This document shows, in pieces, positions 6,300 through 60,600 of a stretch of 64,000 nt of DNA. Under the pieces are notes generated by a model. That model saw only the letters and a program-made list of their open reading frames with translations. It had not been told where the DNA came from and searched no databases. Source of the stretch: Zygnema cylindricum. Its lineage: Eukaryota > Streptophyta > Zygnematophyceae > Zygnematales > Zygnemataceae. The stretch spans positions 124,001 through 188,000 of the forward strand of contig JBBHKE010000985.1 in assembly GCA_037447655.1 (NCBI GenBank), written 5' to 3'. Position 1 is the first letter of the stretch; the number at the start of each line of letters is the position of its first letter. Both the position numbers and the translations under genes were made by a program.

Positions 6300-7260
6300 A
6301 AATGTTTCACGAACAAACAATAATTAATGAACATAAATACTTGCCTAACCTAAAACATTGGTGGTAATCAAAACCATACTAGCCTTTTGACTTAAATCGA
6401 TGGATAAGCAATTTGAAAAATAATCTTTTAATGTTTACATTTTACTAGAACGCTTTTACTTTTAGGTACCTTTTAATTATGAAAAAACCATTCAAAATTT
6501 TGTTTTGCATGTAGTTTCTTTCATATTTAGCATTGTCCAGATTTTGTCCAGAAATTGGTCAAAACAATATATCGAATGTTATATTTTCCATGCCGGTCCA
6601 TAATCCCAAAGCTGCATATGATATCGCTTAAAATTATTCATCGAGGAATATCCATGTTAGCATTTTCACCAATTTTTAGACTACTCCGGATGTTCACATA
6701 ATAAGTGGCCAAAGAGTAAAACTCACCCCAACTTATTTGCATAACTTAATTTCTAATCATTATCACTATTAGAAGGAATTAAAACCGTTATAATATAATG
6801 TGGGGACTCAATGAAAAGAAAAAAAAAGAGGCTCAAGTCCACACCATTTTAAAAATATACTTTAGTTTAAACCTGAATTTTAAAAATCATGGAATAATAT
6901 TCTTGACGTATCTGTAATAAAGACACCCAAAAATAATTATCCTACAAAACACTATTGCAACTGTCGTGGAAGACGAATAAAAAAACAAAAGAAAAAGCGA
7001 AAAGTCTCATAAAAAAAAAAAAGTTCATAACACAAAATATTTGATTACCGTGAAGCAGTATTATCATCCAAAGTACGACTGGCGTCTTGACTTAAAATCC
7101 ATACTTAAGATCGTACACTCTCAAATGCTCACACTTATAAGGATGATTCAATTATCATTGTGAGTATTTGTTACATTCTCCAACCGATACTTCTTTTAAA
7201 AACAAAAAAAATCCACTTCATTCACGTTGCGATCTTTTCTTCCTCAAGGGAGTGTACGAG
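6300..7260. other. No gene seen; right part matches 49.0-49.45 kb
   Basis: AT-rich sequence without a supported reading frame. From about 6780 onward, patches resemble the segment left of locus B (for example GTCCACACCATT against GACCACGCCATT, and a shared GACTT-AAA-ccatac block). Confidence 0.45.
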
Positions 7261-7263
7261 GAG

Positions 7264-7545
7264 GTGGTGATTTTGAAGAAGATGAGGGAGAGGGACGAAG
7301 TGGAGGTGGGGGAGAAGGGGGGGAACGAGAAGGAGGAGGGGAGGGAGAGGAAGGAGGTGAGAAGGAGGAGGAGGGGAAGGAAGGGAAGGAGGAATGGAAT
7401 GGAGGAGGGGGGAGGAGGGGGGGAGGGGGAGGATGAATGGATGAGGGTGGAGGAATGAAGGAGGGGAATGGAAGGAGGAGGAGGTAGGGGAGGTGGGATG
7501 GGATGGAGGGAGGGGAGGAACGAGGAGTCGGTTGTAGGTTTCCAA
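7264..7545. repeat. Purine-rich tract downstream of the EGF exon in locus A
   Basis: Almost pure G/A on the plus strand. Read on the minus strand it encodes Pro/Ser-rich text in all three frames, ending SSSSKSPPPRTLP. Locus B has a related tract at the same place (49480-49745) with clearer KSPPPRHP units. Either a proline-rich hinge is encoded after the EGF module or both are only low-complexity DNA; composition alone cannot decide. Confidence 0.4.
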
Positions 7546-8650: not shown

Positions 8651-8928
8651 ATTCGCAAATGAACCTGCTCGCCTGATTGTTGTATCCTTTATTGCATGCG
8701 CATAATGGCCCCTTTGTGCCATTAGTGCAGATACCGTTTCCCCCACAGGGGCCTCCTGGTTGAGTCGCATTACAAAACGCGTCACAATCGCTTTTACTTC
8801 GCTGACTAGAGATGTCGCACAATGATGGGAGGTTAGAGCCAAATAGGCAATTGTGTTGTATCTCGTAACAAGATGGGTGCCCGTTGACTGTGATTATCGG
8901 CCCGGTGAAGAAGTTGTTATGAATTGTC
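8651..8928 (-). CDS. Locus A terminal exon: half LRR, Cys cap, EGF-like module
   Basis: The exon starts after GTTTACAG with one base that completes a Leu codon, matching the phase of the LRR exons. It ends before GTATGT in phase 1. It opens with NNFFTGPI, the front half of an LRR, then a cap with paired cysteines (PSCYEIQHNC, then SLCDISSQRSKSDCDAFC). An EGF-like domain follows with spacing C-x8-C-x5-C-x8-C-x-C-x12-C, including PGGPCGGNGIC and CACNKGY. An open frame from an ATG at 8948 runs through the exon, but the acceptor inside it and the match to locus B favour an internal exon. The paralogous exon at 51416-51693 has exactly the same length. Confidence 0.82.
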
Positions 8929-11900
8929 CTGTAAACGTGGTCCGCCATTGTAAAAAAAAACTAGTCGGCAAGCCATAAAAATCAATGATTACCCCTCTAA
9001 AAAATACGTAGAAATGCGTAAAATGATATATAAGGATGCGTCAATAGTGATTTATGTACAATAAAACACGTAAAAAATATATGACACCAAACCTTTTCAT
9101 GTCACATAGTTTTAAATTTAGTTTTTTTTACTAAATATAGTTACTACACGTGACATGCTCATTTGACAATAAGATTGATAAATGGAAGTTTTATTAGGAA
9201 TCATAAAAGGCGTGTTTATGATCGTTTTTTTTTTTTTTATGCCCATTTTTGGAATAGATATGTCATATAAAAATTTCAGCTCTTAAATTTGCTGTCTGGA
9301 CAACTAAGAGACTTGGAAAAACCGTAAGTTAACCGTTTTAAATGGTGGAGTTCAAGTAAAAATAAAACAAAAGTGAAGGAAAAACATATTGATTAATTTT
9401 CATTTTTCACCTAAAAAAACATCATATGTTGGAAAGATATACTTGTTAAAACACACAATGTGGTGTAATTCGTTTGGGAACCAACCATCAATATTTTTTT
9501 ACACTTTGACAGGTAATAATATCCAAATAAACAAAAGGATAGAAACATGTAAAGCCAATTAAATAAATAAAAAATCGCTCAAAAATGGAGAATAAAAAGA
9601 TACAGGATACCATATAACAAATTTTGTAACAAATTTTTGCCATTTGAAGCACAATTTGGATAAGTAGCGAAACTATATATATTTCTTACAATAAGTATTT
9701 GATGGATGTGAGTTGATAGAAGGACGATGGAATGCCTCCAGTCAACTGGTTGAAAGATAGATCTCTGTGACAAAAAAACCGCAAAAACCAATCATAAAAA
9801 AAAAACGAAAAAATCTCAAACATCAATGGAAATTAAAAAAATACCAATTTTCCATACCATTATTTATTTACTACTATTTTTATTATTATAATAATCATTT
9901 TTGTTGATATTTTTTATGATCTGAAATACACCTAGAGATTTGGAAATTAAAATTGCAGAAAAACAAACAATATAATAGTATTTATAATAATATTATTGGC
10001 AAAAAAAATAAAAATAATAATAATAATTGTGCCAAAATAGATGAACATATAATATTTATATATAAACGATAAAAAAAACAACAAAGCGAAAAAAATAATT
10101 TACATTATATGGTTTTTGTCACGCTAATGCCGCCCCTCTTTCTCTCATTGCACAAAAGAAATTATCGGCAGGGTATTGTAAAAAAAACCACTAAAATACC
10201 AAATTTTGAATTACAAATTTGTGAACCCACAAGTTATCCATTGATATCTAAACCAATCATGAACCCAAAACCCCAAACCACAACTCCACAGGCCCCTCTG
10301 TCGACCTTTGATCCTCTCTTCCCCAATCACATCACTTAACTTGAACTTTCTACAACTTCTTTTTTGAGAATAAAAACGAAAAAATAAATATAGAAAACGC
10401 ATTTTTTGACTTTGATGCGGTGACGTATTTTTTTTTTAAAATAAACCATTTTAAGACACACTTTTAATGCGTAACATAAAAATAGTGTTCATGTGTCTTA
10501 CAAAACTTCTAAGTGTGTCAGTTGACCGATGGACGATGGAATGCTTCCACTCAACTGGTTCTCACTCAGCCACCTGTAACGCCGAGCATTCACAAAATTA
10601 ATAATAGAAAAACAAATTAAAGGAAAATTAAAGATCGAGGGAGAAAAAAACATTAAACTACGATTTTCCCACTCAAGTCCTTCTGTTTTGACCCCTTCAC
10701 TTCTCCGCCTTTTTTTGCTAAAGGTTGCGAGACAATTTTTTTGGATTTATGAAAAAATAAAAAAACGTGCTATCAACGTAATCAGTTTTCAACATAGTTA
10801 ATAGATAAAAAAAAATGAAATAAATACAATCCTTCTAAATCAGGTTAAACTTTAAATCAAAAGGTGCAGGTTTCTCTAATATCTCTTTCACAAATACATA
10901 TGAATATGATTATATATACATATGTAGATATTTTATGTCATATCTCCCTTACACCCTCCCTTTGACTTCTTGTCTGTTATTCATTGGTCACTAAAATTGT
11001 ATGTGTTTTTCATTATGAATTTTTTAACATTACTACTATTGTTACAATTATTTTAAATGATACTATAACTTACATTTTTTTTGTTATTGCTATCCTTGTT
11101 GCTATTATCAATCTTATTAGTGTTACTATTATTTATGATTTTTATCGTACATTTGGAAGAAAGTCACACCTAAATATCTAAAATATTAGACTATGATTTT
11201 TAAAATGAAAAGAAAAACAATAATAAGAATAGTAATAAGAATACAATTATATTAAATAATAATAATATTTGTGCAAAACGAAGAAGTAAATCAAATAATA
11301 GTAATAAAAAAGTAGAAGACAAAAATAATTCACACCAAAATATTTTTGCCACACTCGTCTCACCCTTCTTTTCCCCATTGTACAAAAGTAACAATCGGTA
11401 AACCAACATAGAAAATTCATGGAAAAATAAACGAAAAATAAACATTTGTTTATTGCAAGGCTTTTACTCCACATCTAATTCAATCGCTGTACCATCTAAT
11501 CCTCTCCCTCCCTCTCTCTCTTACACATCAATTAAATTTTACATCTAATACCATGTTTTTATATGTATAAAACAAAGGAAAAAAAGAAGGATTTTTTTTT
11601 ACAAGATTAAAATACCTAATAACTGGAATAAGTTGTTAAGTTTTGATTATTTTTTTCCGTTAAATATTGCTTTTATTTTATTTATTTTTCTCATTAATTA
11701 TATGATGCTATACTTTGATATTTACATGTTTTTCATATTGATTTTAAAATACAATTATTAGTGTTGTGTATCGGTTAAAAATTTATCGCGATAACACCGA
11801 TACCAAAAGTTATCGGTTATCGAACGGTCAAGGTCCCGATATATCGGTCAGAGACCAACAAATTCCATATTGGCGATAACTTTTAAAAAATGTAGTATGC

Positions 11901-14776
11901 ATACAATAGAACTATATAACATACTGTATTATATTATTTACTTTATATAGCGTGGTATGTCCCATTATGTACCTGTTCCGTATCTGTTTAACTAAAATCT
12001 ATTACGGACAACGCAGCACATAAACGTCAATAAATTTAAAACAATACTTCATAGTTCTAAAACTATAGTATTGAAACGAACAAATTAAATTACATTGTAA
12101 AATTTTAATCAAAAATTTTCTAAAAACATACGTACACGAACAGATCAAACGAGCACATCTGTCAAACTGCTGCCATTTATTGCAGCCTACTGCCACCATC
12201 TTTTGACGATTAAGGGGCACTTATTTGAGGAAACATTAGTTTTCTATAAAAAAGTAAAAATATATATTTATTCATTGTGGTTTTTTACCAAAATCGGGGG
12301 GAAGGGGGTCCGCGGCACTTCCGGGGAATAACACGTAGAGTTGTGTACTGGCCGTACATTTATCTGTTGATTATTTTTCTTGTCCGTATAGCTATTCCTA
12401 TTTGTATTACCCATGATCCCAATAAGGAATCTAAAAAAAAGCTTGCATCTTCAAAATAGAAAATTGAATATCTAAAAAGTAATACACGAAATAAACCTTA
12501 AACAACTCTTTCAACTCTCAAGTACACTGTTAATAGTTATTAGAGTTAAAGGATTTTTTGCCACTTAAAACATATTTTCTCCGTGCACACCGGTTGGATT
12601 GTCAATCGGAGACCCCCAATAGAAAGGTGAGAATCTTGGCTTCCAATAGCAACTATCGAATGGACAATCCGACAAGTGTGTACGAAGAAAATATGTTTTA
12701 AATGGCGAAAAAAACTTCAACTTTAATAACGATTAGCGGTGTAGTAACGTATACTAACATTTTTACGATCCTCTATGTGGTAAATTTTTCTTTTTAAGAA
12801 CAAATTATAGTTAAAGTTCATTTTTTTTTCAACATAATAAGCGTGTCATGTGCCTCACAAGGCTTGGAGGATGGACGATGGAATGCTTCCACTCAAGCCA
12901 CTTCCTCTTCCTTTAATCCTCTCTCCCCCTCTCCCTCTCCAACTCCCCACCTCCCTCTCCCATTCCCCTCTCCTTGCCTTTATCCCTCTCTCACCCTATG
13001 TGTCTTACAAATAAGAGAGGGATGTCATCCGACCAATGGACGACGGAATGATTCCACTCAACTGATTTCGTTGTAGCGATCTGTGACACAATATTCGTGA
13101 AACCAATCACAAAGTAAATTGATAAAAAATATTATTTGGGGAAAAAAAACATCATGATTCTAGAATTTTCATGTAAATAATCGCATTTGATCACATGCCT
13201 TCTCCCTCCCTCTGCGCCTCTAACTTTTTTCTCGCTCCAATTTGAAACTCAATTTTTCCGTTTTGGTTAAAAAAAAAAAAAACTGAAGTTAAAATGACTA
13301 ATGTTCAAGAGCATGAATAGTAAATAAAGAAAAAAAATATTTCTTGCACCTCGTCCCTTTTTCTTTCTCTATCTTGCTTGACACATATTACTCCATTTCA
13401 AATGACAAAAATAAACAAATACAACAAAAAAGAATTGGCAAAACTAATAACAAAAAATTACCAAGAATTGGATGAAAGAAAAACAGTTGCATTTGTTAAA
13501 TGCAAAATATTTAATCCAAGTAATTTCAATCACAATCCCCTCCTCTCCCACTCCCTCGGCTGGAACTCGCCCTCCCCTCTCCTCATTTAAAATTTTTATA
13601 ATTATTTTATTTTTTAAACGTAAGGAACTACTACAATAAAAATCGTACTATTAACGATAGAAAAAGAAACCTTAAATGTCAAGATATTGATTTTTGCTCA
13701 TTTTTTTCATTCAAAGTAGTTTTTTATTTTCGGAAAAGTTATTAATTGTATTTAGAAATGGTTGTTTTTAATTACAATGCTACAACTTTTTTTTTCTCAT
13801 CGGTAAATACATGGAAATTTGTTATTTGATATGATAAATAATTATTATTTTTAACTTCTTTCTTATTATTTTTTATTTATAACAAATTATACATTATTGT
13901 TGTTATTTGTTTTTTTGTCATTATTTTGATTATACTTGTTGCTGTTGTTTTCCCTCTTGATTTACATAAAACATTTTATTATATTTGATATACAATGGAA
14001 CAATATTAAATAATGTTAATAAATAAAATAAAATATCAATAAATATAATTTATAAAAAATTGGAAAACCAACGAGAAAACGAAATGGTTTTTAAGCATTA
14101 GAAGAAGGCAAAATTTATTGCAAATTGTAATATTTCCTTATGCCATAACTCTACAAGGATTGCCTCCTCTCCCATCCCTCTCTCCCCCCACTCACTTTCC
14201 TTTCGATAAAAAGATTAAAAAATCCGCAAAACCAATAAACAAATAAAAAAACCATTAAAAAAATTAGGAGAAAAAAAATGCGCAATAATTAGGTGTATTT
14301 TTGCCACATAACTACGATCTCATTTGCGATTTATTTTCAATATATAAAAAGAAAAATACACAAGGAGAAAACGAGACCCTTTCTACTTTTTCTTATGTGT
14401 AGGTCTTAAATTAAAAAAGAAAGAGACTCTAAAAATAATATATCAAACAACCGTAATACAGAAATGAAAAATAAAAAAAAGCAAAACCTGTGTCCTCATC
14501 AAGAGAAATAACTATTTCAAGTATCTACAACAAATTGGGGTTAACAACAAATTGAGGTTTAAATCAAATTGGGGTTAATAACAAATTGGGGTTAATAACA
14601 AATTGGGGTTTTACAAACTGGGTAAGAGAAATTATATTTGCAAGATAACAAATTTATTTGAAGTTCACTTTGGATACCATTACAAAACTATTTAGGTATC
14701 TTACAATTCTTTGAGGGATGTGAGTTGACCGATGGACGATGGAATGCTTCCACTCAACTTGTTGTTTTGTACAAAT
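8651..14776 (-). CDS. Locus A: multi-exon LRR-EGF gene (partial)
   Basis: From its 5' side, the minus strand carries LRR exons at 14776-14705, 13080-13009, 10573-10502 and 9764-9690, then a 278-nt exon at 8928-8651 with a cysteine cap and EGF-like module. Each exon is preceded by an acceptor (mostly TGTCACAG) and followed by GTAAG, and all LRR exons keep the same phase (2-2). Splicing them in order keeps one frame in the LxxNxLSGxIPSSIGxLTSL register typical of plant-type LRR proteins, which bind peptides or proteins at the cell surface. No signal peptide, membrane or kinase exon is recognisable, so both gene ends are unknown. Introns carry a MITE and a hAT end. Gene or pseudogene status needs RNA data; the exons themselves look intact. 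Confidence 0.75.
9690..9764 (-). CDS. LRR exon A1 (75 nt)
   Basis: The exon lies between GTCACAG and GTAAG and encodes one repeat with DLSFNQLTGGIPSSFYQLTS. It has one extra codon near its 3' end compared with the 72-nt siblings and keeps phase 2-2. The right-hand flank (GGTTTTTGCGG on the minus strand) matches the other cassettes. Confidence 0.78.
10502..10573 (-). CDS. LRR exon A2 (72 nt)
   Basis: It is exactly 72 nt between GTTACAG and GTAAG and encodes WLSENQLSGSIPSSIGQLTH followed by LEV. The downstream intron start shares the GTAAGACAC-ATGAACAC block seen next to other LRR exons. One full 24-residue repeat, no defects. Confidence 0.85.
11756..11900 (+). mobile_element. hAT-like element end inside locus A intron
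   Basis: Starts TAGTGTTGTGTATCGG, the same 16 bases found at 26186 next to a hAT transposase relic. It continues with TATCG-rich short inverted motifs and the shared GAACGGTCAA block (GAGCGGTCAA at 26249). The other end is not identifiable. Related diverged ends occur at about 57470 and 62435. Confidence 0.5.
12523..12743. mobile_element. Foldback MITE A (subfamily I)
   Basis: Flanked by TA on both sides, with inverted ends CACTGTTAATAGTTATTAGAG and CTTTAATAACGATTAGCGGTG. Inner arms also pair (AAACATATTTTCTCCGTGCACAC with GTGTGTACGAAGAAAATATG), so nearly the whole element folds back. It lies in an intron of locus A. Confidence 0.82.
12854..12894 (-). pseudogene. Truncated LRR exon in locus A
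   Basis: The minus strand retains only LSGSIPSSI followed by LQA and a GTGAG donor. The 5' third of the exon and its acceptor are replaced by pyrimidine-rich DNA. The flank with CGTGTCATGTG matches intact cassettes, so this is a broken copy rather than chance similarity. Confidence 0.7.
12900..12995 (+). repeat. Pyrimidine-rich tract replacing the 5' part of an LRR cassette
   Basis: CTCCCTCTCC-type low-complexity DNA sits exactly where the acceptor side of the exon at 12854-12894 should be. Similar tracts stand beside most LRR cassettes in both loci. Confidence 0.7.
13009..13080 (-). CDS. LRR exon A3 (72 nt)
   Basis: It is exactly 72 nt between TGTCACAG and GTAAG and encodes SLQRNQLSGIIPSSIGRMTS followed by LSY. 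Residues before the conserved Asn differ from its siblings while the IPSSIG scaffold is kept. Only 115 bp separate it from the truncated copy at 12854. Confidence 0.85.
14526..14612 (+). repeat. 17-18 bp tandem repeat in upstream intron
   Basis: About five head-to-tail copies of a unit close to AACAAATTGGGGTTAAT, with small variations. Confidence 0.8.
14705..14776 (-). CDS. LRR exon A4 (72 nt), most 5' exon seen in locus A
   Basis: It is exactly 72 nt between TGTCACAG and GTAAG and encodes FVQNNKLSGSIPSSIGQLTS followed by LKE. The acceptor flank reads GGATGCTTGTGTCACAG on the minus strand, almost the same as in locus B. More 5' exons must exist if this is a complete gene, but I find none up to 16 kb. 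Confidence 0.85.
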
Positions 14777-18894: not shown

Positions 18895-18928
<34 letters not shown>

Positions 18929-18945
18929 GCACTAAACAAGTGCTC
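17412..18945 (+). repeat. Long pyrimidine-rich tract
   Basis: The plus strand is almost entirely C and T from about 17815, grading from CTTTTCCTTCTCC on the left to CTCGCCCTCGCC in the middle and CTCTCTCTCT at the right end. Long frames through it (Ser/Pro/Leu on plus, Arg/Glu/Lys on minus) are composition artefacts. Confidence 0.9.
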
Positions 18946-19555
18946 AATTGGTGTCCCGAATTTGCTAGCCGCATGAAAACTCATCCTTGATGAGATCCAC
19001 GATCACCCATACGTGTGGAACATACTTTTCGTGATTTTTGGTGGCCATCGATCCGCGAGGTCATGGGAGGTTGTCTTCATGCATGAAATTTTATGGGAGG
19101 AATGGGTTTTTCACAGTTTAAGAAGTTTAAGAAGTTTAGTTTCAGGAATAATTTGACCTTCTCCGTAAACTTGGTCTAGTGTGGGTTGTTGCCCATTCAA
19201 GATCTCTAGGCTGTACTCAATATTCATGGAAATAGTGCACTTTTTTGCAACGACATCTGCTGTTGGAGGGAAAGTGAAATTCTATGGGCTCCATTGCCAC
19301 ACAGAATTTGCATATCCAAAGAAGCTTATCTAGATAGTGCCGACTCCAAGTTCATACAAACCCAAATGAATGACACCTTGACACTTAGAATCCCAATACA
19401 ACTTCACCCTTGTGAAAATAAGACTTCTGTGTGCTTAGTTCCACCACAAAATGCAAAGCTTAAACATGTGTTTTGGACAATATTCCCCACTTTCACTTTC
19501 CCACTAAATAAGTGCCACCTTGGCAAGACAAATCCTCTAATCGACTACACCCTTG
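18946..19555. other. No recognisable gene
   Basis: Ordinary-complexity sequence. An 88-codon plus-strand frame (19294-19560) matches nothing I recognise. Confidence 0.4.
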
Positions 19556-19876: not shown

Positions 19877-21480
19877 TGCGACGCCACGTGGAACCGCGTG
19901 ACGCTATCTTCGAATGCCGCCAAAATCTCACTTCGCGTGGCATCTACAATGCCGGCCGTCCGATCAAAACATGTTTTACACGGTTTAGATTCGCGTAGAT
20001 GCATGAATTGTTTCTCTTCGTTAGTTTGGTTTTAATTAGCTGTCCTGTTAATGTTTATATATCTTTGAAACCTATTACGTGTATCGTTTTGATAACGCTT
20101 TAGTGGAAAAGGCGTATCACTACACTTCTATAGACCTTGGTGCAAATCCGGTCTAGAGCAGCTTTTAGTTATATGTCAGTTTGTCTAGGAATTCTCTACC
20201 TGGACACTTTTAAATACCTACTGTACCAAATATATCTCAAAGTTGATTTAATCTATAGGCTAAAGCTAACCGCTACCAAATTTAATGGCTAGTAGGTACC
20301 TGGATAAAATCCTGGTTCCGTTAGGCCTTTTTTGGTACAAACTAAGTATTAGCCTATTCTCTGTCTCCTTGGACATTATAGACAGCCATGGCTCTAGCTC
20401 TCTCTCTGGTCTTCAGTGACTGCAACAAATATGGGGATTGGAGAGTTTGAGCGAGAAGCATGCTCCCTTTGTTAATTTACTCTATTTTTTTTTCTAATAC
20501 AGACCTAGAAAATACATCAATTTCAACAGCCACAATATTTATCTACCAGTAAATATCGTTTTACATTGTACAAGGATTCTTCAATTGCAATCTGCACTCT
20601 TGAATGTTGTTGTGCCATTTTTTGCCGGCACCAGGTGGCTATTTCCATCTACCTTTTGGTCGCTTTTGTTCACCTTTTTTTTTCAACTCAAATTGATGAA
20701 ACTCGCATATTCAATGATAATAAGATATTTTTTGAAAAGTTCACCGAATCTTTTTTTCTATCTGATCGAATTTACATTTTTGTCAAAATTGAAATAACCC
20801 ATCGTTTAAATTTGTATTTTTTAAGACCGTTTGAATTTAGTTTAAAACATGTAATATATGGTAATATGTTAAAAAGTTTATTTTCTACATCTAGTCTAAA
20901 CTTTGGAAGTTTCTAGCTTTTCTATACTATAAAATTTGATGTTTCTCTCTCGTTTCATTGGATGACTATTCTCATTTGTTTGTGATTTTTAAAATTAACT
21001 TTTATTCAACCTAGTTTTACGTCCACATATCAGAGTCTTGTTCTGTTTCGGTTCACGTGTATTATAAATTGGAAAAAACATAACTCTATCGATTGTAGGG
21101 GAAGAAACAAAATTTGTCTTCCACGAATATCTTGCTAATATTTTAATGGATACTTCCTGATTTCATCAAAAGATTATTTGAAGACACAAACGACATCATT
21201 CCAATTCTTAAGTTTGACTTATTAAAACACTTCCTACTCTTCCTTTACAAAACTTCAGATAGAAAATATGTATTTCTGTTCATTTTTTCTACTATTATCA
21301 AGCAAATACCCATTTTCTTATGTTTTTTTGTGTAGAATATGTAAGAATCCCTCTCAAGGGTCACTCACAAGTATTCCAATCTTGTAAGATTCCCAATCGC
21401 CGGAGAAATTCTTCCCGCCAATCGATGATCGTTTAAGAACCTGCATCACCCAACCATACTGATTACGTTCTGGTTAGGAA
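19877..21480. other. No recognisable gene
   Basis: AT-rich sequence. A 116-codon frame at 20566-20916 is Phe/Leu/Ile-rich and unrecognised; I do not support it as a gene. Confidence 0.4.
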
Positions 21481-22285: not shown

Positions 22286-22659
22286 TCATAGCGGATCTGT
22301 CACGTCACATGAGCGATAATCACTCACAATGCAAACACGCGACCGTCATCGTCGCATCGGATGGGCGCTGCATCCAACTCGTAGTGGTAGAAAATATCTC
22401 CATAACATATGCTTGGGGGAAACCAGTACTTGATCGAGAGGGCCAACCGCATCGCATCCAAAGCTGACCTTGCGACAACAATACATTATTGGTATGATCA
22501 ATTAGTAATAAATGTTACTATTATGATCATCATAACAGTATGTATAGCATTGTTGTGAACTATCAATAGTACAATAAATATTATTTAGTATTATTGGTAT
22601 GATAGCACCAAAATTAAGAGACGTGTGGGAGGAGAAAGTCACTACAGGAACGCTCACCT

Positions 22660-24075: not shown

Positions 24076-24318
24076 ACTTACTGTCTTGCTGTGCCATGGG
24101 TCCATCGTAGTATCCCATTACAACTGCCACGTGTCACGCTAAGATCAACACCGTCACAGTGACCATGTTGGCAACCATGGCCCCAGATTATTCGTGACAC
24201 GGACACAAGAGCTTGTTACTGACCACCACGTGGCAACTTCAGTGAAGAAAAGCTGGCAATTCAGTTCGATTAGGGTTTTGAGTTCGTGTGGAAAATCGTC
24301 TTTCAAATGTGCACACTG

Positions 24319-49000: not shown

Positions 49001-49479
49001 ATAGTAAAACATAAAGAATCAATTAAATGAAATAAAAATGGGTCAAGACCACGCCATTCAACAAACTTAACTTAGCCGAAACTTGATAAGTCAAATTCAT
49101 AAAATGTGTAAGATGAATGTTTAAAGGTCTTTGTGAAAAACATCACTAAAACGATGTATTGGAAAATATTGTTCGAATTTCAAAATAATAATAAATAAAC
49201 GTTCAAAAAAAAAAAAAAAACTTGTCGAGCTCAGAGACTTGACTAATCTGAATTCATATTAGCAATTGAAATAGAACTGACATGTTGACTTGAAAGCCAT
49301 ACATACAATCAAAAATGCATCCACCAAATTATTTTTCTTTTCAAAGGCTTTTACATTAAGTATGCTTAATCATCGTCTTTCTTTTGTTGTGTTTCCAACC
49401 GATATTGGTTCCAACAACAATTTATTCCATTTTTCCACGTTTTACTTTCTACTTCCTCAACAAGGAACGGGCACGAGGT

Positions 49480-49745
49480 GGGAATTTTGGAGGAGGTGCG
49501 GTACGAGAAGGTCGACGAGGGGGATGGGGATTTTGAACGAGGTGAGGGAGGGGGGAGGCGAAGAGGAGGGGGGTGACGAGGAGGGGATTTTGGAGGAGGA
49601 AAGGTAGGACGGGGGCGACGAGGAGGTGAGGTAGGACGGGGGTGACGAGGAGGTGGGCCTTTTGAACGGGGTGAGGGAGGAGAGGGGTGACGAGGAGGTG
49701 GGGATTTTGGAGGAGGAGAGGGATAAGCAGAGGAAAGAGGAGGCG
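49480..49745. repeat. Purine-rich repeat downstream of locus B EGF exon
   Basis: Repeated GGGGATTTTGGAGGAGG-type units. On the minus strand one frame reads KSPPPRHPSPPSPRSKGPPP and similar, an extensin-like Pro-rich text. Whether it is an exon is uncertain: no clean acceptor/donor pair was identified, and the equivalent tract in locus A is far more degenerate. Confidence 0.4.
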
Positions 49746-51415
49746 GCTTCATCACTACAAAACAATTGTGACAAGAAGACACAAGAATATTTTTTATCAA
49801 TCATTCTGCTTTTTAGTTTACAAACAAATGAAGAGGCAAGATCAAATAAACGAGGATGTGGTTGTGGCTTCACCACTACAAGACCATTAAAGAAAGAAGA
49901 GAGAAGAAATGCTTGTTGTCAATCATAGTGCTTTTGGCAAACAAAGAACTATATTTTCTGAAAAATTCGACTTTATTGATCATCCTAGCATAAATTATTG
50001 AGATAGTGATCATTTTCGTTTTAAAACATATCACGTGTAGTAAAGATTTAGAGAAAAAAAAAAAAATCTGGTGAAGAAGGTGGGGCTAAAAGGTTGAAGT
50101 GGATTGACATGAGGAGCCACTGATGGCCAAAAGATGTGAGAAACGTTGATTGGTGGAAAAATGGGGGTGCAAAGAGAATTGCAACAAAGATGAGTCGAAC
50201 AAACAAAAGTTAAAAGATATACGGGTAAGTTTAAGGCTAATACATGCATGAACTACCTTGTATTTCAATGTTTTTTTTTAATGAAAAAAATAGTTCACTT
50301 TAAATGTTTTGTATTACTTTGCAATGAACATAATCTTTTTATAAATACCATTTATTCGAAATTGTGAGAATTTGTCATAAAATACAAATCTTATTGTTTG
50401 AAGTTTAACCTTTATAAAAAGTTACATGTTTTTTATTTTTATGACCCTATTGAAAAAAAAAATCAGGGATATAAAATAGAATTGCAAATGTCTACACATG
50501 CCAAATACCGTTGAAAAATTTAACAAAAAAGTAAAAAAATAGCTTGCATACGGTTGTGTAAGTAAAGATTATTCCTATAGCTATGGTTGTCAACAAAAAA
50601 AAAGTCTAAGAAAATTTTGAAAAGAAAAAAAAAAAAACAAAAGACAAGATTTACCCAAAATTGTGGTTTCTTCAAGTTTGTGAGTGTGTTTTACATTGGA
50701 TTTCGCTTAATTTTACGATAATTTTATAAACGACAGTTTTTTTTCACAGACTAAGTTCATAGCAACTTTGGGATTTCATTAGGATAAAATTTCGTTTTAT
50801 GTGACATTTGATCTTAGTTTACGCTCCAAAGGTGTTACAAATTTTCATGCGCTATATTTGAATGCAAATGGAAAAAAACTAGTTAATTTGTTAATAAAAC
50901 AATCTCTTTAGATATTTAAAAATAAGATAATTTAAAAAAAATTGATCTGTTGTCGTTTTAAAAAAAATTGGAAAAAAAAACAAATTCGAGTTAAATGGAA
51001 AATTGAAAAATCGGTATGTTTATGAGCAAAAAAAAATTGAACACCCGGAAAAGAATTTCCCCATTAGTAAAAAAACTTCACGGATTAAAAAATGTAACCA
51101 TATAATTGGATGTTTTGTTTACGAAGTCAGAGGAATTGGAAACACTTATAAACATGGTGTGCACAACTAAAAGCCAAAATTTTGGGAGCTCCTTTAAAAT
51201 CTCAAACATTGACTTTATCTTCCCTCGTATATTGGCCGATTATGGTTGTTGCTTTATACTAATTAGGTCCTTAAAATTCCAATTTTAACTTTTTGTTGTG
51301 AATATTTTATTGGTATACGACATGCATGAAAATGAAAGAAAAAAAATCAGTAAATCGTTCGTATTTTTCAAAATAAATATTGCATTAGCTTGCATCTTGT
51401 TGAAGGTGGATCTAC

Positions 51416-51693
51416 CTTTGCAAGTAAACTTGCTAGCGTGATTGTTGTATCCTTTATTACATGCACACGATGTCCCCTTCGTGCCTATGGAACAAATACC
51501 GCCTCCCCCACAAGGGCCTCCTGGTTGGGTTGCATTGCAAAACGCGTCACAATCGCTTTTACTTCGTTGATCACTTGATGCACATTCGGTTCGGAGGTTT
51601 GGGCCAAATAGACAATTGTTTTTTAAATCGAAACAATAGGGAAGCCCGAAGTAAGTGGTAACCATCCCGGTAAAGTAGTTGTCACCAACAAAG
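51416..51693 (-). CDS. Locus B terminal exon: half LRR, Cys cap, EGF-like module
   Basis: It starts after ATTTACAG and ends before GTAGAT, in the same phases and with the same 278-nt length as 8651-8928. It encodes VGDNYFTGMV, a cap with LPYCFDLKNNC and TECASSDQRSKSDCDAFC, then an EGF-like module with PGGPCGGGGIC and CACNKGY; all cysteines are at the same spacing as in locus A. The stretch QRSKSDCDAFCNATQPGGPC is identical in both copies, whereas the introns around it have drifted, which suggests selection on the protein. Confidence 0.83.
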
Positions 51694-54600
51694 CTGTAAA
51701 TATGGTCCAACATTTTATCAGAAAACTACCCGGCAAGCAATAAAAATCCATGGGTAGACGTATAAGAAATAAAAACATTTGGGGAGGAATCCACCTTGAT
51801 TCATCTACAAAAATACTGAAAAAAGATGCGTGCTCTAGACTTCTTAGATATCAACATCATAATAATATTTTTGCTTATTACTGTAATTATTTTACAAATT
51901 AATTACTCATTTGGCATTAAGATTGATTAATAAAAATTTCATCAAGTACATAACAATATTTTCATAACCGATATATTTTGTTTTTTATAAGCAATTATCA
52001 AACCATTAGGTTGTAAGAAAATCGACTCTCTTGGTTTGTTGCTTGGACAAATAAAATAACTTTAGAAACACCTAAAATGATTTTTTTAAATGTTAAAATT
52101 CCAATTGAAAATGAATAACTATAAAAAAAAAAGTAGAATAGGCTATTTTTAATTTATTACACTAGTAAAATCATCTACAATAGTATGTATTATTCACAGT
52201 AAAAAAATGTAGTGTAATTATTTTTAGAACAAACAACCAGCATTTATACACGAACTGAAAGAAAAAATGTAAGACACGATACCAAGTTGCTTTTTTAACA
52301 ATCCCCTCCTCTCCCTCTCTTTGCTAGCCAAAAAAATAACAATCCACAAGAAATAAAAGGAAAGTAACCTATATAAAAAAAAGTAAAAACAGAAATACAA
52401 TTTTCAAATGTGATGTCTGCTCATCAGATTCTACCACTTGCAATGCCCTCACCCGCTTACGCCCTCTTTTTCATCAGTTTCATAACGAAATATATTTGAA
52501 TAAAATAAAAAAATAAAAAAATAAAGAAATGAAACACTTTAAAATAACAAAAGTGAAATATAACTATAAAAAAGAAAAACCTCATATATAGACGATGAAT
52601 GTCAAAATGGTTTTTTTTTACTATATTTTTCACTAAAGATTCAAATGTCATTTTTAAAGATCTAACGTCTATTGCCATCCCCCCTCTTCCCCACTGCCAC
52701 CTTTCACGCCCTCCTTGTTTTTGCCCCCTCCCATTTCTCTCGTTCTTTCCCTCTTCCCTCTCTCCCCATCTCCCCCTCTCCCTCTCTCCTTTTCATTCCC
52801 TCACCTTTTTTTTTTTTCAACCTCCATCCCTCCCCGCATTCCCCTTCCTCCCCCTCGGACCATCCCTATATCGGCCTCTCCCACCCCCTCCCATTCTCAC
52901 TCGCCTTCTGTCTCCCCCTATCCCTCGCTTCCCCCCCCTCGCTCTCGCTTTCTCAACTTTTATAAGTAACACAACCAAAGTGTCATGTGACTTACAACCA
53001 TTCAAGAGATGTCAGTAGACCGATTGTCCATGGAAAAATTACAGTAAATTGGTTGTTATTTAGACCTCTGTGACAATAGGCATCCATAAAACCAATACAA
53101 TAAAAAAAAAACAAATATCATAATAATAAAAAAAAAAAACATTTACAATTTTCAAACATACAATCGGATTTGTTTACATGCACCCCCTCTTACCCCCGCT
53201 ATCATTTTCACAACTTTCCCTTCTTTCACCTCCTCCCCACTCTTCCCTTTTCCCCAATATTGCATTGCCACCATCTGTCGCTTAATTTTTCCAGTTTTAT
53301 CAGAAAAATAAAGTTCATAAGTTTTAATTACCAACTGTAAAACATTAACTTTTGATTATAAAGTATTAATGTTTAATTGTTAAATATCAATCATTAATTA
53401 TCATATATTAAGTATCAATAATTAAATACCAAGTTTCAGTTATTGGTTATGTATTATTGAAAAAATAAAGTATTCACGATTATTTATTTAGTATTGATTA
53501 TTAAGTATTATATTAGAATAATTGATTATTAAATATTAAATAGTAATTATTAAGTATTAAATAAATATTATGTTACTTATTTAGTATTTAACAAAAAATA
53601 TTAAATATTAAATTTTAATTAGTAACCATTAAGTGTTGATTATTTAGCTGTAGTTATTATGTATTAATTATTGATCAATAATTATAAACTATTAAACATT
53701 CAAAATAATATTTTACTTCTAAATTTTTATCTGTAAGTATTAAGTATTAATTACTAAATATCGATTATTGATTATTATGCATTATTACTTAGTATTAAAC
53801 ATTGAGTATTGAAGATTAAGTAATAAGTAAAAAAAATGTCTCTACCTTTACTTCTCCCTCCCCAAAAGCCTCTATTACCATCTCTTCCTCTCTCTACGTC
53901 TCCTCTTTTCCTATTTTCCCTACCTCTATAACACCCACTCCCTCTCTCCGTGTCTCCCACTCTCCCTCTTCCCTCTCCTCTTTACCACTCCCCTTAACAC
54001 CCTCTCCTATCACTCTCGCCCTCTCTCTACCTCTAAACTTTTTCCCTCTCTCTCTCTTCTCTCTCTCTATCCCTTTCCCTCGTCCTCTCACTTCTTCTCC
54101 TCCTCTCGGCCTCTCCCTCTCTTCCCATATCCTTCACCCCTTTACCGTTTTTCCCTCTCGTGCCCCTCCCCTCTGCCTCACTTTTTATGCATAACACAAT
54201 CAGAATGTCATTTGTCTTACACGTATCGGAGGGATGTCATTTGACCGATAGACGATGGAACGATTCCACTCAACTTGTTGTAATGTAAATATCTGTGACA
54301 ATAGATACCCATAAAGTCATTCAGATTAAAAACACTAGAATGAAAACAAATATAAAAAAAAAAAAAACAATTGTTTACAATTTTCAAACACACAATTGCA
54401 TTTGCTGACCAATTCTCTCTCTTCTACCCCCACTTGCCTTTCTTCCCCATGCTTCTTTGGCACAGTTTGTCATTTATTCGTTCCATTTTCATAAAAATAA
54501 AATCATATTACTTCAATTTTTCTAGTTAGTTTTCAATATATAGAAAAATAACAAATGGTTCGAAAAAGTAAATATATATATATATATGTATATATTATAT

Positions 54601-57600
54601 ATATACACATATATATATATATATTACAAATATCTATTATTAATATTATTGTAATTATTATTATTGCTTTTAATATTATTATGATTATGATTATTTTTAT
54701 GATTATTATTTCTAATATTACTTATCATTTTTAAAAATCTTTATTATTTCTATTTTTATTATTATTGTTTATTATCTTTATTATTAGTTATCGTGATTAT
54801 TTACATAGCTATTATTACTAGTATTATATATATGATTATTACGATTAACTATTAAAGATTGACAAACAAATAACTACTTTTCAATTATAAGTTATAAATT
54901 ATCAGCTATTAAATATCAATTATGAAATATTTGTTATTATTTACTATCAATTATCTATCTTTAATTATTAATCATCGGTTACTACTTGTTATTGCGTCTT
55001 AAGTATGAATCATGAACTATTGATTACTACGTGTGAAAATTAATTATTAAGAATTGACAATTGATTATTGATGATTAACTATACAATACTAAGTGTCGAT
55101 TGTTAAGTATTAATTCGTGATTATTAATTTTAAGCTATGGATTAATAAGTAATAAGCATAGAATAATTTTTTCTGTGATATTGAGTTTTAGGTGTTAATT
55201 ATTTGATATAAACAGTTAACCATTAATTATTGATTACAAATTATTCAGTATCAATTATAAGTTGGAAATTGTTATGTGTTAAGTATTGTCGATGAAGTAT
55301 TAACTGTTGATTATTAAGTACACCGTGAATCGGTATTGGCGTAATGAACGCTATTTAAGGTACCATTTTTTTTTTTTAATTCTCAAATAGAATTATCCAC
55401 ACTATTTAAAAAAGAACCTAATTTCTAATTAGAATAAACGATTTCGTTGAAAATTTCCAAATTCTCAATTAGCGTAAATGACGGTAATTGTTCCTACACG
55501 CTAAAGAAACCTTTACGCGAATAACGATTCACGGTGTAGCTTTCATTAATTCCTAAATTTTAGGTTACAAGTATTAAGTATTAACTATTAATTATCACTT
55601 ATGAGGGTATTAATTATCAATTTTAATCATTGGACATTAAATATAAGGTATTTCGTTATTATTGTCACTTAATTATTGAGCAGCAAATTTCAGTTCAAAA
55701 GTTTTAAGTACTAATTATAGAATAATAAATATTACTTATAAAGTGTACAAATTATGAATTGCATTAAATGTTAAGTATGTATTGTTCATAACTAATTACA
55801 ATTATTAAGTAAAAATTTTTAAATATAAAGTAATATGTATAAGTTACTGCATGTTAGTTATTAAATTTGAAGTATTAAATTTTTATGATAAGTTATTGAT
55901 CATAGATTAGTAGGTATTAATCGTTAACTGTTGATTATTAATTATAAAGAATAAATTATTACATTTTATAAGGTACGTTTGAAGTATTCATTAATGATAA
56001 TTACGTATTGATATTGAAAAATAAGTAACACGTACTATTTTTATTAGTTATTAAATATTAATAATTAAGTATTGATTTTTAAATATCAATTATTAAGTAA
56101 CTAGACCTACTCCCTCTCCCTCTCCCTCTCCCTCACCCTCGCCCTCACCCGCAGCCTCTCCTCCCCCTCTCCCTCTCCCTCTATCACCTCTCTACCTCTA
56201 TCTTCACCTCTCTCCCTTTCACTCTCGTCTTCCCGCTCTTCTCCCTTCCCCCCTTCGGCCACTCTCTCCCTCCCTTTCCCCCTCTTCCCTTCTTTTTTTC
56301 TCTCTTTCTCTCCCACTCTCTCATTTCCTCCATCTTTCTCTCTCTCTCTCTCTCTTCCTTTCATTTCACCCCTTTTCCCGCCCTCCCTCCCATTCTCCCT
56401 CACTCTCTTGTTCCCTCTCTCCCTCCATCTATCCCTTTTCCCCCTATGTTGCCCTCCCTTCCCCCCCTTCCTCTCTTTTCCTCTCTACCTCCATCTCTCC
56501 CTTTCTCTCCCCTTCTTCCCCTATCTCTCCCTTTCTCTCTACCCCTATCTCTCCACTTCTCTCCCTCTCTAGCCCCCTTACTTGCTCCTCCCTCTCCTCT
56601 CTACCCTTCCTGAACCTTTCCCTCTCCCCCTGCTTTTAATCTCCTTTTCCATCTGTCCCTCTACCCCGATCCCACTCCTATCCACCTCTCCTCACCGTAT
56701 ACCCCTCTCACCATCTCCCCTAATTCCTCTGCACCCTTCCTAGCTTCCTCCTCTCCCACCCTCGCACCCCCCCCTTCCTTATACCCTCCCCTCTCTCTCC
56801 CCCTCTCCCTCCCTCTCCCTCACCGCTCTTCCGCTCTCTCTCTTTCCCATTCTCCCCCTATTTTTCACCCTTTCCCCTCTCCCTTCGTCCCCATTTCCCC
56901 CTCCTCCTCTCCCCCCTTCCCCTCTCCCATCTACCCCTCCCCATCGTCTTTTGCCGCCCTCTCCTTCTCCCCTTGTCCCAATTCCTCACTCTTTCTCCTC
57001 CGGATCCCTCTCTCCATCCTCTCTTCTTCCACCGCCCCTCTCCCCATATTTTTCTCCCCATTCCCCTATCTACAAAAACGTTAGTGTGCCATTCTTCTAA
57101 CAATTTTGTAATAGGGTTATTTGATACAATTATATACTAATAGTGATGCAATCATCCAAAATGTTCTTTCCAGATTTAGCTTTGCGGAAAAATTTAGACT
57201 TCAATAAATTTTGTATTAGAGTAATTTGATTGCACTATGTAAACTAGTGTGAAGGATTATGAAACCAAAGAGTGTAGACCTCTAAAAAAAATTGATGAAA
57301 GCATTGTGTAAACTGTTGGAAAAAAACATCTCCTAGTTTCAATAATCCTTTTCATCATTCACCTTCTAAACCAAACTTCCGCCTCCCCAGCTCTCACGTA
57401 GATATTGTCTTTCCCTTTCCCTCTTTCTCTTTCCACTAAATAGACATTTTTTTCTGTTAGTGTTGCGTAGTAATAAAATTCAACGGTGATACATCGCCAT
57501 TTTGGTATATCATAATATCCGGAAGTCCAAAAATTGACATATATCGGTTTTGCCGATAAATAACCAATATTAGTTTTTTAAATAAAACATTTCAGATGTA

Positions 57601-60600
57601 CGGAATATGCAGAATTTGAATAAGGTACGGAATGCACGGAGTGTAGGAGTGGAAGAACTGTATAGACGGTACATTAAGGATAGGATTTTTTAGGGAGAGG
57701 CCTCTCGCTCCCTCCCTCTCCACCACTTCCCTCACCCGCTCTCCCCCTCTTCCCTCTCAATCCCTTCGTCTTCCCTTTTGCCCCTTTCACCTTGTCACCC
57801 TTTATCTCTCTCTACCTCTCCCGCTATCCCTCTATCTCCCTCTTTCTCTTTCCCCAACTCTCCCTCTCGCCGATTTCCCCCCCCACATTTGATTAGTAGC
57901 CCTCTCTGTCGAACCCGCATCTCCTCTTGCTTCCTTACCCTTTTTCGATATAAATTCCTGTAAATTTTTATAATAATGTTTCCCTCAATAAAAATCAAAA
58001 TCATGAATGAAAGTAAAATTTTGATTTTTTTAACATTTAATGCGGTAAACTATTGTTTGCAAAAAACCATTTCCGTTTAGACCACATTTTTTATGCGTAA
58101 AACAACCATAGTGTCATGATCTTACAAGGTTTGTAGGGATGTCGATGTAGGGATGGGATGGGATGTAAGGGTTATTGAGTATTCATTATCAACTACCACT
58201 TACAAATTATTACTTATAAATTTCTAAAATATTAATTATTAAACATTTATCATCAATCACTAATTATTGACTATTAATTGATAATTATTATACGGTAAGT
58301 TTTAATTATCAACTATAAAGTATTACTTATCAAGTATGATGTATCAATTATTAAATATCGAATTTCAGTTATTGGTTATATATTATTGAAAAGTAAAGTA
58401 CTCATGATTATTTATTTAGTATTGATTATTAAGTATTATATTTAGAAAACTGATTATTAAATATTAAACAGTAATTTTGAAGTATTAATGAAGTGTGGCT
58501 TATTCAGTTTTAAATAAAAAAAATTGAATGTTAAATTTTGATATTAACTATCAAGCGTTAGTTATTACGTATTAGTTATTCATCAATAATTATAAAATAC
58601 TAAATATTAAATGTTGTTTTTTACCTATAAATTATTCTCACTAAGTATTAAGTATTAATTACCAAACATCAAATGATGATTATTATGTATTAGTACTAAG
58701 TATTAAATATTGAGTATTGACGATCATGTAATAAGTAAAAAACAATGTCTCTACCTTTGCTTCTCCCTCTGCATCCGCCTTTCCTCCCATCTCTCCCTCG
58801 CTCTACGTCTCCCCTTTACCCATTTTCCCTATCTCTATAACACCCACTCCCTTTCTCCGTGTCTCCCCCACTCCTACTTTTCTCGCCTATTTTCCCTCTT
58901 CTTTTAACACCCTCTCCTATCACACGCGCCCTCTCTCTCCCTCTCCACCTTTCTACCCCTCTCTCGCTTCTCTCTCTCCATCCATTTCCCTCGCCCTCCC
59001 TATTTTTCTCCTCTTCTCGGCCTCTCCCTCTCTTCTCACGTCCTTCACCCCCTTACCTATTTTCCCTCTCGTGCCCCTCCCCTCTGCCTCACTTTTTATG
59101 CGTAACACAATCAGAATGTCATTTTTCTTACAAGTATTGGAGGGATGTCAGTTTACCGATGGACGATGGACGATTCCACTCAAGTTGTTGTAATGTAAAT
59201 ACCTGTGACAATAGATACCCATAAAGTCATTCAGATTAAAAAAACACTAGAATGAAAACAAATATAAAAAAAAACAAAAACAACTGTTTACAATTTTCAA
59301 ACACGTAATTGCATTTGCTTACCTCTCCCCTCTCTTCTACCCCCACTTGCTCTCCTTCCCTTTTACATCTTTGCCACATTTTACCACTTGTTGTTTCTAT
59401 TTTCATCAAAATAAAATGATATCACTTAAATTTTAATAATTAACTTTCAATATATGGAAAACAAAACAAATAGCATAATTTTATACCATAAAACTATTTC
59501 CAAAAATATATAAATATTTATTATTGTTATTATTATTATTATTATAAATAGCTATTTTTAACATCAATGTAATTATTATTATTACTTCTTATATTATTAT
59601 AATTATGATTGTTTTTATGATTATTATTTATAATATTACTCATCAATTTTTTAATCTTTATTATTTCTATTTTATTCATTATTGTTTATTGTCTTTATTA
59701 TTGTTTATCATTATTATTATTATTTTACATGTTTTTATTACTAGTAGTATTTATATGATTATTATTATTAACTGTTCAAAATTGAAAAATAAATAACTAA
59801 TTTTCAATTATTAGTTATAAATTATCAGCTATTAATTATCAATTATGAATCATTTATTATTAGTTATTATCAATTACCTATTTTTAATTATTAATCATCA
59901 GTTATCACATGTTATTACTTATTGTTACGTCTTAAGTATGAATCATGAACTATTGATTACTAAGTGTGAAAATTATTTTTTAAGAATTAACAATTGATTA
60001 TTGATTATTAATTATACAATACTAAGTGTCGATTGTCTAGTATTAATTCGTGATGATTAATTTTAAAGTATCAATTTCTTAGTAATAAGCATAAATTTTT
60101 TATTTTTATTCTTGAGTTTTAGGTTTTAACTATTTAGCATAAATAATTAAACCATTAATCATTGATTATAAATTATTGAGTATGTGTTAAATATTTGACT
60201 ATAAAGTATTAATTGTTGATTTTTATTAACTCTTAAATTTGAGGTTACAGATATTAAGTATTAGTTATTAATTATCACTTATAAGGGTATTAGATTATCA
60301 ATTTTAATCATTGGAAATTCAATATTAAGAATTTTGTTATTATTAATTTTTAATTATTAAGCATTAAATGTTAAGTAAAGAGTTTTAAGGACTAATTAAA
60401 GAATATCAGATATTACTTATGAGTTGAGTAACGACAAGGCATTAAGTATTAATTGCTCAATATAAAGTAATGTGTATGTTATTACATGTTAATTATTAAA
60501 TTTGAAGTAAATATTTATGATTAGTTACTGATCGTAAATTACTAAGTACTAATTGTTAAATATTCATTATTAATTATCAAGTATCAATTATTACATATTA

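Follow-up and report, generated by a model that had tools for sequence, protein, structure and literature searches.

The window, as we call the whole 64-kb stretch of DNA analysed here, carries two paralogous loci, A and B, and locus A is probably one gene of a large family, encoding secreted, probably wall-associated LRR proteins diversified through symmetric-exon duplication and selection. By sequence, LRR cassettes are followed by a cap/EGF exon and then by a C-terminal module, proline-rich at loci A and B but papain-like at some other loci. In such proteins the LRRs would recognise a range of external ligands (from microbes, mates or the wall), the proline-rich tail would anchor the protein in the wall, and symmetric-exon duplication together with selection would diversify the receptor set. 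One-LRR, 72-nt, phase-2 exons are already known from brown-algal ROCO genes, as PMC11378527 describes; new here are the lineage, the scale and two layouts, LRR-EGF-proline-rich and LRR-EGF-protease.

Structure of loci A and B

The first-pass annotation had described locus A as four exons (72, 72, 72 and 75 nt), each encoding one LRR and all in phase 2-2, within the range 8651..14776. With their boundaries re-read, all four stand: they lie on the minus strand, each is bounded by an AG acceptor and a GTAAG donor, and where one cassette joins the next the divided codon encodes Leu. The range does hold the four cassettes, but the gene extends past it on both sides, and its starting position, 8651, is the final base of the cap/EGF exon (8928-8651).

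22328..22468, minus strand: exon read as an LRR N-terminal cap (N-cap), 141 nt, phase 2 at its end
21369..21440, minus strand: first LRR exon, 72 nt, phase 2-2, diverged in sequence from the cassettes; located by the exon finder, boundaries checked
14705..14776, minus strand: cassette A1, 72 nt, one LRR
13009..13080, minus strand: cassette A2, 72 nt, one LRR
12831..12896, minus strand: relic cassette (nhmmer E = 9.5e-11); 3' part of the exon and downstream flank, without the 5' part
10502..10573, minus strand: cassette A3, 72 nt, one LRR
9690..9764, minus strand: cassette A4, 75 nt, one LRR, one codon extra
8651..8928, minus strand: cap/EGF exon, 278 nt; Cys-rich LRR C-cap and EGF-like module; enters in phase 2, leaves in phase 1
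7244..7545, minus strand: last exon, proline-rich tail with stop; acceptor and frame read

The N-cap exon of locus A is weakly similar to that of another array, C39a (E = 0.004). Within the 64-kb window we found no signal-peptide exon, and no Rfam families or tRNAs. Locus B has the following parts.

62605..62676, minus strand: cassette B1, 72 nt
59132..59202, minus strand: cassette B2, 71 nt; a copy of B3 minus one base and out of frame (or an assembly error), inside the tandem duplication
58073..58156, minus strand: relic cassette (nhmmer E = 1.3e-12); B1-like exon 3' end and flank, at the duplication junction
54221..54292, minus strand: cassette B3, 72 nt
52996..53067, minus strand: cassette B4, 72 nt; conserved Gly lost
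51416..51693, minus strand: cap/EGF exon, 0 differences from the paralog on contig C741 over 280 positions
49366..49754, minus strand: last exon, proline-rich tail
53372..62549, no strand: tandem duplication; 53372-57577 pairs with 58301-62549 in three alignments of 71-90% identity (self-BLAST)

This duplication measures ~4.9 kb, and the C741 paralog is single-copy there (10 kb of C741 compared). A search for an N-cap exon of locus B found none, and locus B itself may be a pseudogene.

Scale of the family

Searches of the assembly (352.8 Mb in 2,689 pieces) returned 817 matches to the LRR exon core, as opposed to 2 for a reversed control. The full acceptor-donor pattern gave 273 matches against 12 for its control, the C-terminal EGF core 136 against 0, and at least 40 copies of the cap/EGF exon were scored. 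With exon length left free between 63 and 84 nt, 75 of 78 LRR exons in the loci examined measure 72 nt. At 14 of 16 EGF-core places (contigs C20-C236) the 15 kb upstream hold a same-strand LRR core; downstream the count is 0/16. The exon finder gave 75 hits, 68 of which entered the codon counts; left out were duplicates where loci overlap, two hits judged to be chance, the 75-nt exon and the first LRR exon. In the open-licence literature searched, no description of this LRR cassette family was found.

Predicted product

A database protein of another organism, P0001 (323 aa, from contigs no longer than 1,671 nt), carries every module in a single frame: a signal peptide, then an LRR N-cap, LRRs of 24 residues, the Cys-rich cap, an EGF-like module and the proline-rich tail. 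The length of its LRR units is that predicted by the exon boundaries in the window. Its N-cap matches that of C39a (E = 2e-7) and has no match to the locus A N-cap exon at E <= 5. Among the matches scored (124 of 8,382 candidates), P0001 is at most 67% identical to this genome, and 9 of 131 genome matches to it contain a stop. Against 5.8 billion proteins, a longer query of the C-terminal region retrieved one homologue, the locus A C-terminal query none, and P0001 only itself.

The cap/EGF exon is conserved in 13 aligned loci and gives weak EGF-type Pfam matches. Downstream of the LRRs and this exon, the frame in the window loci ends in a proline-rich exon with a stop; other loci and P0001 have a comparable exon. 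Pfam, extensin included, has no match in the tails of loci A and B, and by reading there is one SPPPP in the locus A tail and none in the B tail or P0001. Neither a kinase nor a GTPase was found by Pfam in 20 downstream frames (10 of 26 at A, 10 of 47 at B), out of 73 frames at the two loci that reach 50 aa.

Unlike the window loci, some other arrays continue into exons for a papain-like protease. In arrays C39a and C39b the cap leads in phase into a next exon on the same strand, and Pfam Peptidase_C1 is matched in two exons; before the presumed catalytic-Cys exon no AG acceptor was seen, and a joined LRR-EGF-protease product was not found. Among close protease copies (contigs C1-C236), 7 of 14 have a same-strand LRR core in the 15 kb upstream and 0 of 14 have one downstream; with a limit of 35 kb the counts are 8 and 2. 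More distant protease copies have none in either direction (0/6). In four cases the protease stands 10-12 kb past the EGF core and could be a separate gene. LRR-EGF-papain as a single intact gene is a possible reading of these arrays, not a proven one.

Constraint and variation in cap and LRRs

The cap frame is open in all 14 loci read, with a median dN/dS of 0.52 over 78 pairs, and locus B and its C741 paralog have 0/280 cap differences as against 3.9-9.4% in introns. In the LRRs (68 exons), pN/pS is 1.18 at five exposed positions, 0.55 at the rest and 0.27 in the structural core; these values are uncorrected and partly saturated. Positions 15, 18 and 19, outside the strand, also exceed 1, and one exposed position stands at 0.87. 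Given this and the saturation, relaxed constraint could mimic part of the signal. LRR variation concentrates on the predicted ligand-facing positions, and since it peaks at these presumed binding sites, the family lends itself to studying how exon duplication diversifies receptors.

Flank similarity and array growth

TGTCACAG stands upstream of three of the four locus A exons, A3 having CGTTACAG instead. It occurs six times in the window (three at each locus) where 0.85 are expected, a number reached in 0/100 shuffles. A nucleotide profile built from the eight cassettes with their flanks (A1-A4, B1-B4) and run on the window recovers all eight at E < 1e-34, together with two copies that are broken, at 12896-12831 and 58156-58073 (E <= 1e-10), and no other place in the window below E = 0.1. 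An exon-only profile marks one more weak place, 4953-4915 (E = 0.046).

Cassettes had been claimed to share their proximal ~50-150 bp. The similarity does exceed that of shuffled flanks, but its length is nearer 50-100 bp. In the 50 bp nearest the exon on its upstream side, the 99th percentile of shuffles is exceeded by 58% of the 206 pairs within loci and by 19% of the 1,624 pairs between loci, so the flanks are more alike than random ones; downstream the values are 52% and 27%, and at 300-350 bp 1-2% of pairs exceed that percentile, which is background. Owing to sequence ends, these counts cover 61 of the 68 cassette exons, and the motif and co-variation results below cover 65. What the loci have strongly in common are the last 8 bases upstream of the exon (TGTCA at -8 to -4 in 42 of 65) and the donor, GTAAG being nearly fixed. 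The inverted motif, TGTCA before and TGACA after the exon, was considered as a pairing or recombination signal and rejected, as only 7 of 65 cassettes carry both halves.

Are the flanks themselves the substrate of exchange, as the first-pass annotation had proposed? Short flank homologies would then cause unequal crossing-over, by which single cassettes are gained, lost or swapped, and flanks that are more alike than chance, most so within a locus, with ~50 bp still alike on each side between loci, are what such a process would leave. Both readable junctions, however, lie outside the proximal flanks: in the junction alignment of the locus B duplication, mid-exon is joined to AT-rich intron, and two near-identical arrays (C39/C775) have 7.6 kb in common at 97.5-99.5% and then differ, breaking in an intronic CCAATG minisatellite. 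Moreover, repeated blocks reach far past the flanks, and within loci the exon and its two flanks vary together (r 0.39-0.43, each reached in 0/999 permutations; computed without the 8 bases adjoining the exon), from which it appears that cassettes mostly move as larger blocks. We regard flank-driven exchange as rather improbable; with two junctions read, it is weakened, not closed. The same low probability attaches to the view that flank similarity is a selected splicing signal only, uninformative on array growth. The common TGTCA and the nearly fixed donor fit such a signal, but one acting genome-wide does not predict the excess of within-locus over between-locus pairs, and the co-variation holds without the exon-adjoining bases. 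As far as the sequence can tell, the short flank similarity marks common descent via block duplication, which, perhaps with some gene conversion, would make the flanks of neighbouring cassettes alike. Arrays have been altered by duplicating blocks with one or more cassettes, as the repeats themselves show, and introns would diverge as distance from the exon grows. That symmetric one-LRR exons with homologous flanks are gained and lost is borne out by the duplication at B, the two relics and the 24-residue units in P0001.

Could the loci instead consist mainly of duplicated exons in decay, with little function left? An out-of-frame B2, two relics, the Gly loss in B4, the N-cap exon missing from our search of locus B and the stops in P0001 matches all point that way; the open cap frames, a dN/dS of about 0.5, the unchanged B-C741 cap and site-specific constraint in the LRRs speak against it, and we think it unlikely. 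Least credible to us, and very improbable, is programmed rearrangement or combinatorial splicing that varies cassette order between cells, as suggested for brown algae. Phase 2-2 exons can be skipped or joined in any order, and C39 and C775 are alike before they differ, but the inverted motif brackets few cassettes, and the C39/C775 break falls in a minisatellite, where assembly errors are likely.

A wider reading, built on the family of secreted LRR proteins diversified by block duplication, we put forward tentatively, as possible though doubtful: in a green alga, a still-shuffling stock of about a thousand interchangeable one-LRR exons, spread over the genome, may feed at least two kinds of secreted product, wall-held LRR-EGF-proline-rich proteins and an LRR-EGF-papain 'sensor protease', the arrays having exchanged blocks recently (97-99.5% identical). 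If true, a large, fast-changing recognition system (immunity, or self/mate) would exist close to land plants, its exon design convergent with brown algae and Tetrahymena. For those two groups, rapid receptor evolution has been proposed to build on symmetric one-repeat exons, and the same design, at scale, in probably secreted green-lineage proteins with exchangeable ends would have arisen again in a third. Array content, breakpoints and binding-face variation could be compared between strains, a natural experiment in how receptor repertoires grow and in whether algal relatives of land plants own a diversified recognition system.

Relation to known systems and lineage

Brown-algal LRR-ROCO GTPases with shuffled LRR exons were reportedly described by Zambounis et al. 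2012. The comparison with brown algae made in the first-pass annotation holds for exon design: in PMC11378527, too, one LRR is encoded per 72-bp phase-2 exon, exons are duplicated and variable positions lie on the concave face. A figure of that paper has 62 LRR exons as compared with our 817 core matches. Unlike those intracellular GTPases, the genes here belong to a green-lineage genome and combine plant-type LRRs with a cap/EGF exon, ending in either a proline-rich or a protease module; no ROC-COR GTPase was found downstream of the LRRs in the 20 frames at loci A and B. Tetrahymena arrays are similar in having very many equal-length LRR exons between phase-2 introns (about 50,000 in 10 species, with ectopic recombination proposed for their growth, according to the portion of PMC6564038 consulted), but those ciliate exons are 90 bp long, of another LRR type and, in that portion, without a cap/EGF module.

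Among plant proteins, LRR-extensins (LRX) share LRRs, a Cys-rich region and a proline-rich tail with this family. The layout is complete in P0001, with signal peptide and N-cap; in locus A all modules but the signal peptide were read, the N-cap being weak. Differences from LRX are the EGF-like module between cap and tail, tails (in the window and P0001) without a repeated Ser-Pro4 extensin domain, and the split LRR exons, which land-plant LRX genes are not known to have. Single-LRR 72-nt exons are known in some plant LRR receptor-like kinases and receptor-like proteins, which have the same LRR type and provide the best PDB matches (GSO1, FLS2 and others); unlike the kinases, the window loci have a proline-rich end and no kinase in the 20 downstream frames. 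LRX2 (structure 6qxp) matches a profile of the last LRR plus cap with 72 bits. The cap alone, considered as an LRX hinge, had no LRX match up to E = 10, nor did a 13-sequence profile up to E = 1.

The RuBisCO large subunit was not found in the assembly, as expected if organelle contigs are absent. LHC genes place the host in the green lineage and rule out a brown-algal origin, so the brown-algal comparison is limited to exon design. By these genes the host is a green-lineage alga, probably a streptophyte: PF00504 has 88 matches in the assembly, and one complete frame matches chlorophyll a-b binding proteins, LHCI-2 best (E = 1e-150) and LHCII-type chains next (E = 1e-125), the closest of which we take to be land-plant entries.

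Gene structure and family size

The assembly searched spans 352.8 Mb in 2,689 contigs, the window being C734:124001-188000. At locus A, the first-pass annotation had placed four exons of 72, 72, 72 and 75 nt, each encoding one LRR; coordinates, splice sites and codon split agree, so this observation holds, and it extends to a family found across the genome. The LRRs of these cassettes, A1 to A4, are of plant type, and a leucine codon is divided 2 + 1 bases across the junction of one cassette with the next.

Features of locus A and locus B (window coordinates)
22468-22328, minus: locus A N-cap exon, weak assignment, from reading outwards from the cassettes
21440-21369, minus: locus A first LRR exon, from reading outwards
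14776-14705, minus: cassette A1, one LRR, 72 nt, AG acceptor, GTAAG donor
13080-13009, minus: cassette A2, one LRR, 72 nt, AG acceptor, GTAAG donor
10573-10502, minus: cassette A3, one LRR, 72 nt, AG acceptor, GTAAG donor
9764-9690, minus: cassette A4, one LRR, 75 nt, AG acceptor, GTAAG donor
8928-8651, minus: locus A cap/EGF exon (Cys-rich LRR C-cap and EGF-like module), next after A4 by reading
7545-7244, minus: locus A last exon, proline-rich, from reading outwards
62676-49366, minus: locus B, exon order from the LRRs onward as in locus A

The locus A N-cap exon weakly resembles that of C39a, an LRR array elsewhere in the assembly (E = 0.004), and is not matched in similarity search by P0001, a database protein from another organism; P0001 does match the C39a N-cap (E = 2e-7). 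Reading outwards from locus A turned up no signal-peptide exon. Locus B has one further cassette just beyond the window, at ~65.3 kb in window coordinates. Another cap/EGF exon lies on the opposite strand at ~197.3 kb of C734 (L013 9269-9460), ~9 kb outside the window; the only cassette found in stretch L013 belongs to locus B.

How widespread is this design? TGTCACAG occurs 6 times in the window against 0.85 expected, and a profile built from eight cassettes with their flanks recovers all eight there, plus two broken ones. The whole-genome cassette search that the annotation had proposed returned 273 acceptor-exon-donor matches versus 12 with the reversed pattern. The LRR exon core gave 817 matches versus 2 reversed, and the EGF core 136 versus 0. 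When exon length was left free (63-84 nt), 75 of 78 exons measured 72 nt. Since 46 of 48 core matches at the examined loci fall in one-LRR exons, and the core is present in only 46 of the 78 exons, the genome total may be near 1,300, a rough figure, as some loci were picked by a related pattern.

Encoded protein and predicted exposed face

Queried against a set of 5.8 billion proteins, the cap region found one good match, P0001 (E = 1e-29, 63% identity), a single frame of 323 aa whose contigs are no longer than 1,671 nt. It runs from signal peptide and N-cap through 24-residue LRRs and cap to an EGF-like module and a proline-rich tail. Because the genomic exons here sit hundreds to thousands of bases apart, P0001 is best taken as the product of a spliced transcript in a related organism; the matches scored in this genome reach at most 67% identity to it. 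It could instead be an intronless gene copy in its own organism, since longer open frames on four contigs of the present assembly (C456, C565, C1170, C2124) match its LRR and cap parts at 41-45%. These frames are uninterrupted by introns and may belong to intron-poor relatives of the cassette genes.

In all 14 loci read the cap frame is open, though 9 of 131 genome matches to P0001 contain a stop. Median pairwise cap dN/dS is 0.52 (13 loci, 78 pairs, range 0.31-1.18). Locus B and its paralog on C741 differ at 0 of 280 cap positions; elsewhere they differ at 4/72 in B3, 7/72 in B4 and 3.9-9.4% in introns. Five LRR-exon positions presumably face outward on the concave strand, as the known LRR fold would have it. 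Among 68 exons these show a joint pN/pS of 1.18 and 2.9-3.6 bits of entropy each, versus 0.55 for the remaining positions and 0.27 for the structural core; these are raw proportions, with synonymous sites partly saturated. Values above 1 also occur at positions 15, 18 and 19 outside the strand, and one exposed position has 0.87. The pattern fits a diversifying surface and is no proof of positive selection. Ligand recognition is a likely predicted role of the family.

Flanks and array change

Flanks of 61 cassettes were compared in 206 within-locus and 1,624 between-locus pairs, the threshold being the 99th percentile of two-base-block shuffles.

Pairs above threshold, within versus between loci
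Upstream, first 50 bp: 58% versus 19%
Upstream, 50-100 bp: 16.5% versus 8.1%
Upstream, 300-350 bp: 1.9% versus 1.5%
Downstream, first 50 bp: 52% versus 27%
Downstream, 50-100 bp: 13.6% versus 3.2%
Downstream, 300-350 bp: 2.2% versus 1.4%

Exon scores are almost alike (60.6 within loci, 58.2 between). Within a locus, similarity in one flank goes with similarity in the exon and in the other flank (r 0.39-0.43; 0/999 permutations each). That the flanks are homologous among cassettes, and more alike than random introns, is borne out by the shuffle comparison; this excess and the co-variation point to cassettes inherited together with their surroundings.

Do these flanks also drive recombination, as had been proposed? 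Locus B holds a ~4.9 kb tandem duplication, and in the C741 paralog (92% identity over 7 kb; 10 kb read) the corresponding cassettes are single-copy. At the duplication junction in locus B (~58146-58273), AT-rich intron runs straight into mid-exon sequence of B1 type, leaving a relic cassette. The arrays of C39 and C775, two other contigs, have at least 7.6 kb in common (97.5% identity overall, 99.5% in the last 3.4 kb), and this identity stops in an intronic CCAATG minisatellite, beyond which they diverge; that break may be an assembly error. Neither junction read lies in a proximal flank, and these two junctions give the flanks no support as recombination substrate. In the C683, C39 and C333 arrays, aligned blocks of up to ~1.7 kb, several with cassettes, are repeated ~1 to 30 kb apart. 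Exon shuffling stands as block duplication, seen at locus B and in these repeated blocks; its flank-driven form is weakened by the two junctions.

Arrays followed by protease exons

C39a and a second array, C39b, end in a related but divergent cap exon followed by papain-like protease exons (Peptidase_C1, E = 3e-20 and 1e-6). This cap exon exits in phase 1, which the following exon fits; those of loci A and B likewise exit in phase 1, so C-terminal ends could be exchanged. On contigs with complete match lists, a same-strand LRR core lies within 15 kb upstream of 7 of 14 close protease copies and downstream of 0 of 14 (8 and 2 of 14 at 35 kb); for EGF cores the counts are 14/16 and 0/16. An intact LRR-EGF-protease fusion remains putative, because both protease loci read lack a normal AG acceptor before the presumed catalytic-Cys exon. 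LRR arrays are followed, at L019 2637-4765 and L020 7143-9178, by exons of the papain-like protease and by one more EGF-like exon. The protease family numbers at least ~110 close copies.

Comparison with known systems

The chlorophyll a/b-binding family has 88 matches in the assembly, and one complete frame matches LHCI (E = 1e-150) and LHCII (E = 1e-125) chains, which puts the assembly in the green lineage, where it is probably that of a streptophyte alga. Brown-algal ROCO genes (PMC11378527) have the same exon design as our cassettes, and Tetrahymena 90-bp exons (PMC6564038) the same logic. Frames scanned downstream of the window loci contain no GTPase or kinase. The layout is LRX-like, resembling plant LRR-extensins, and an LRX1-like protein has been reported among the proteins secreted by Penium, a streptophyte alga (PMC6027541). 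We do not class the family as LRX, because the cap by itself shows no significant LRX likeness, an EGF module intervenes and the tail is no clear extensin.

Repeats around the loci

An LTR retrotransposon with Copia-like frames on the minus strand lies between the loci (30343-36268; direct repeats ~93% identical, 98% over the first 300 bases), and a Copia-like plus-strand fragment (62990-63691) in the intron upstream of B1. A ~225 bp self-complementary element, resembling a miniature inverted-repeat transposon (MITE), occurs at 12522-12746, 24299-24548 and 29940-30163, one copy being inside the A2-A3 intron. An inverted repeat pair, 79% identical, has one member downstream of each locus (2412-3046 and 47370-48000). 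Long purine/pyrimidine-biased low-complexity tracts (17699-18976, 22614-24133, 56097-57140, 60804-61946), several in locus B introns, yield long Pro/Ser-rich frames that are probably meaningless.
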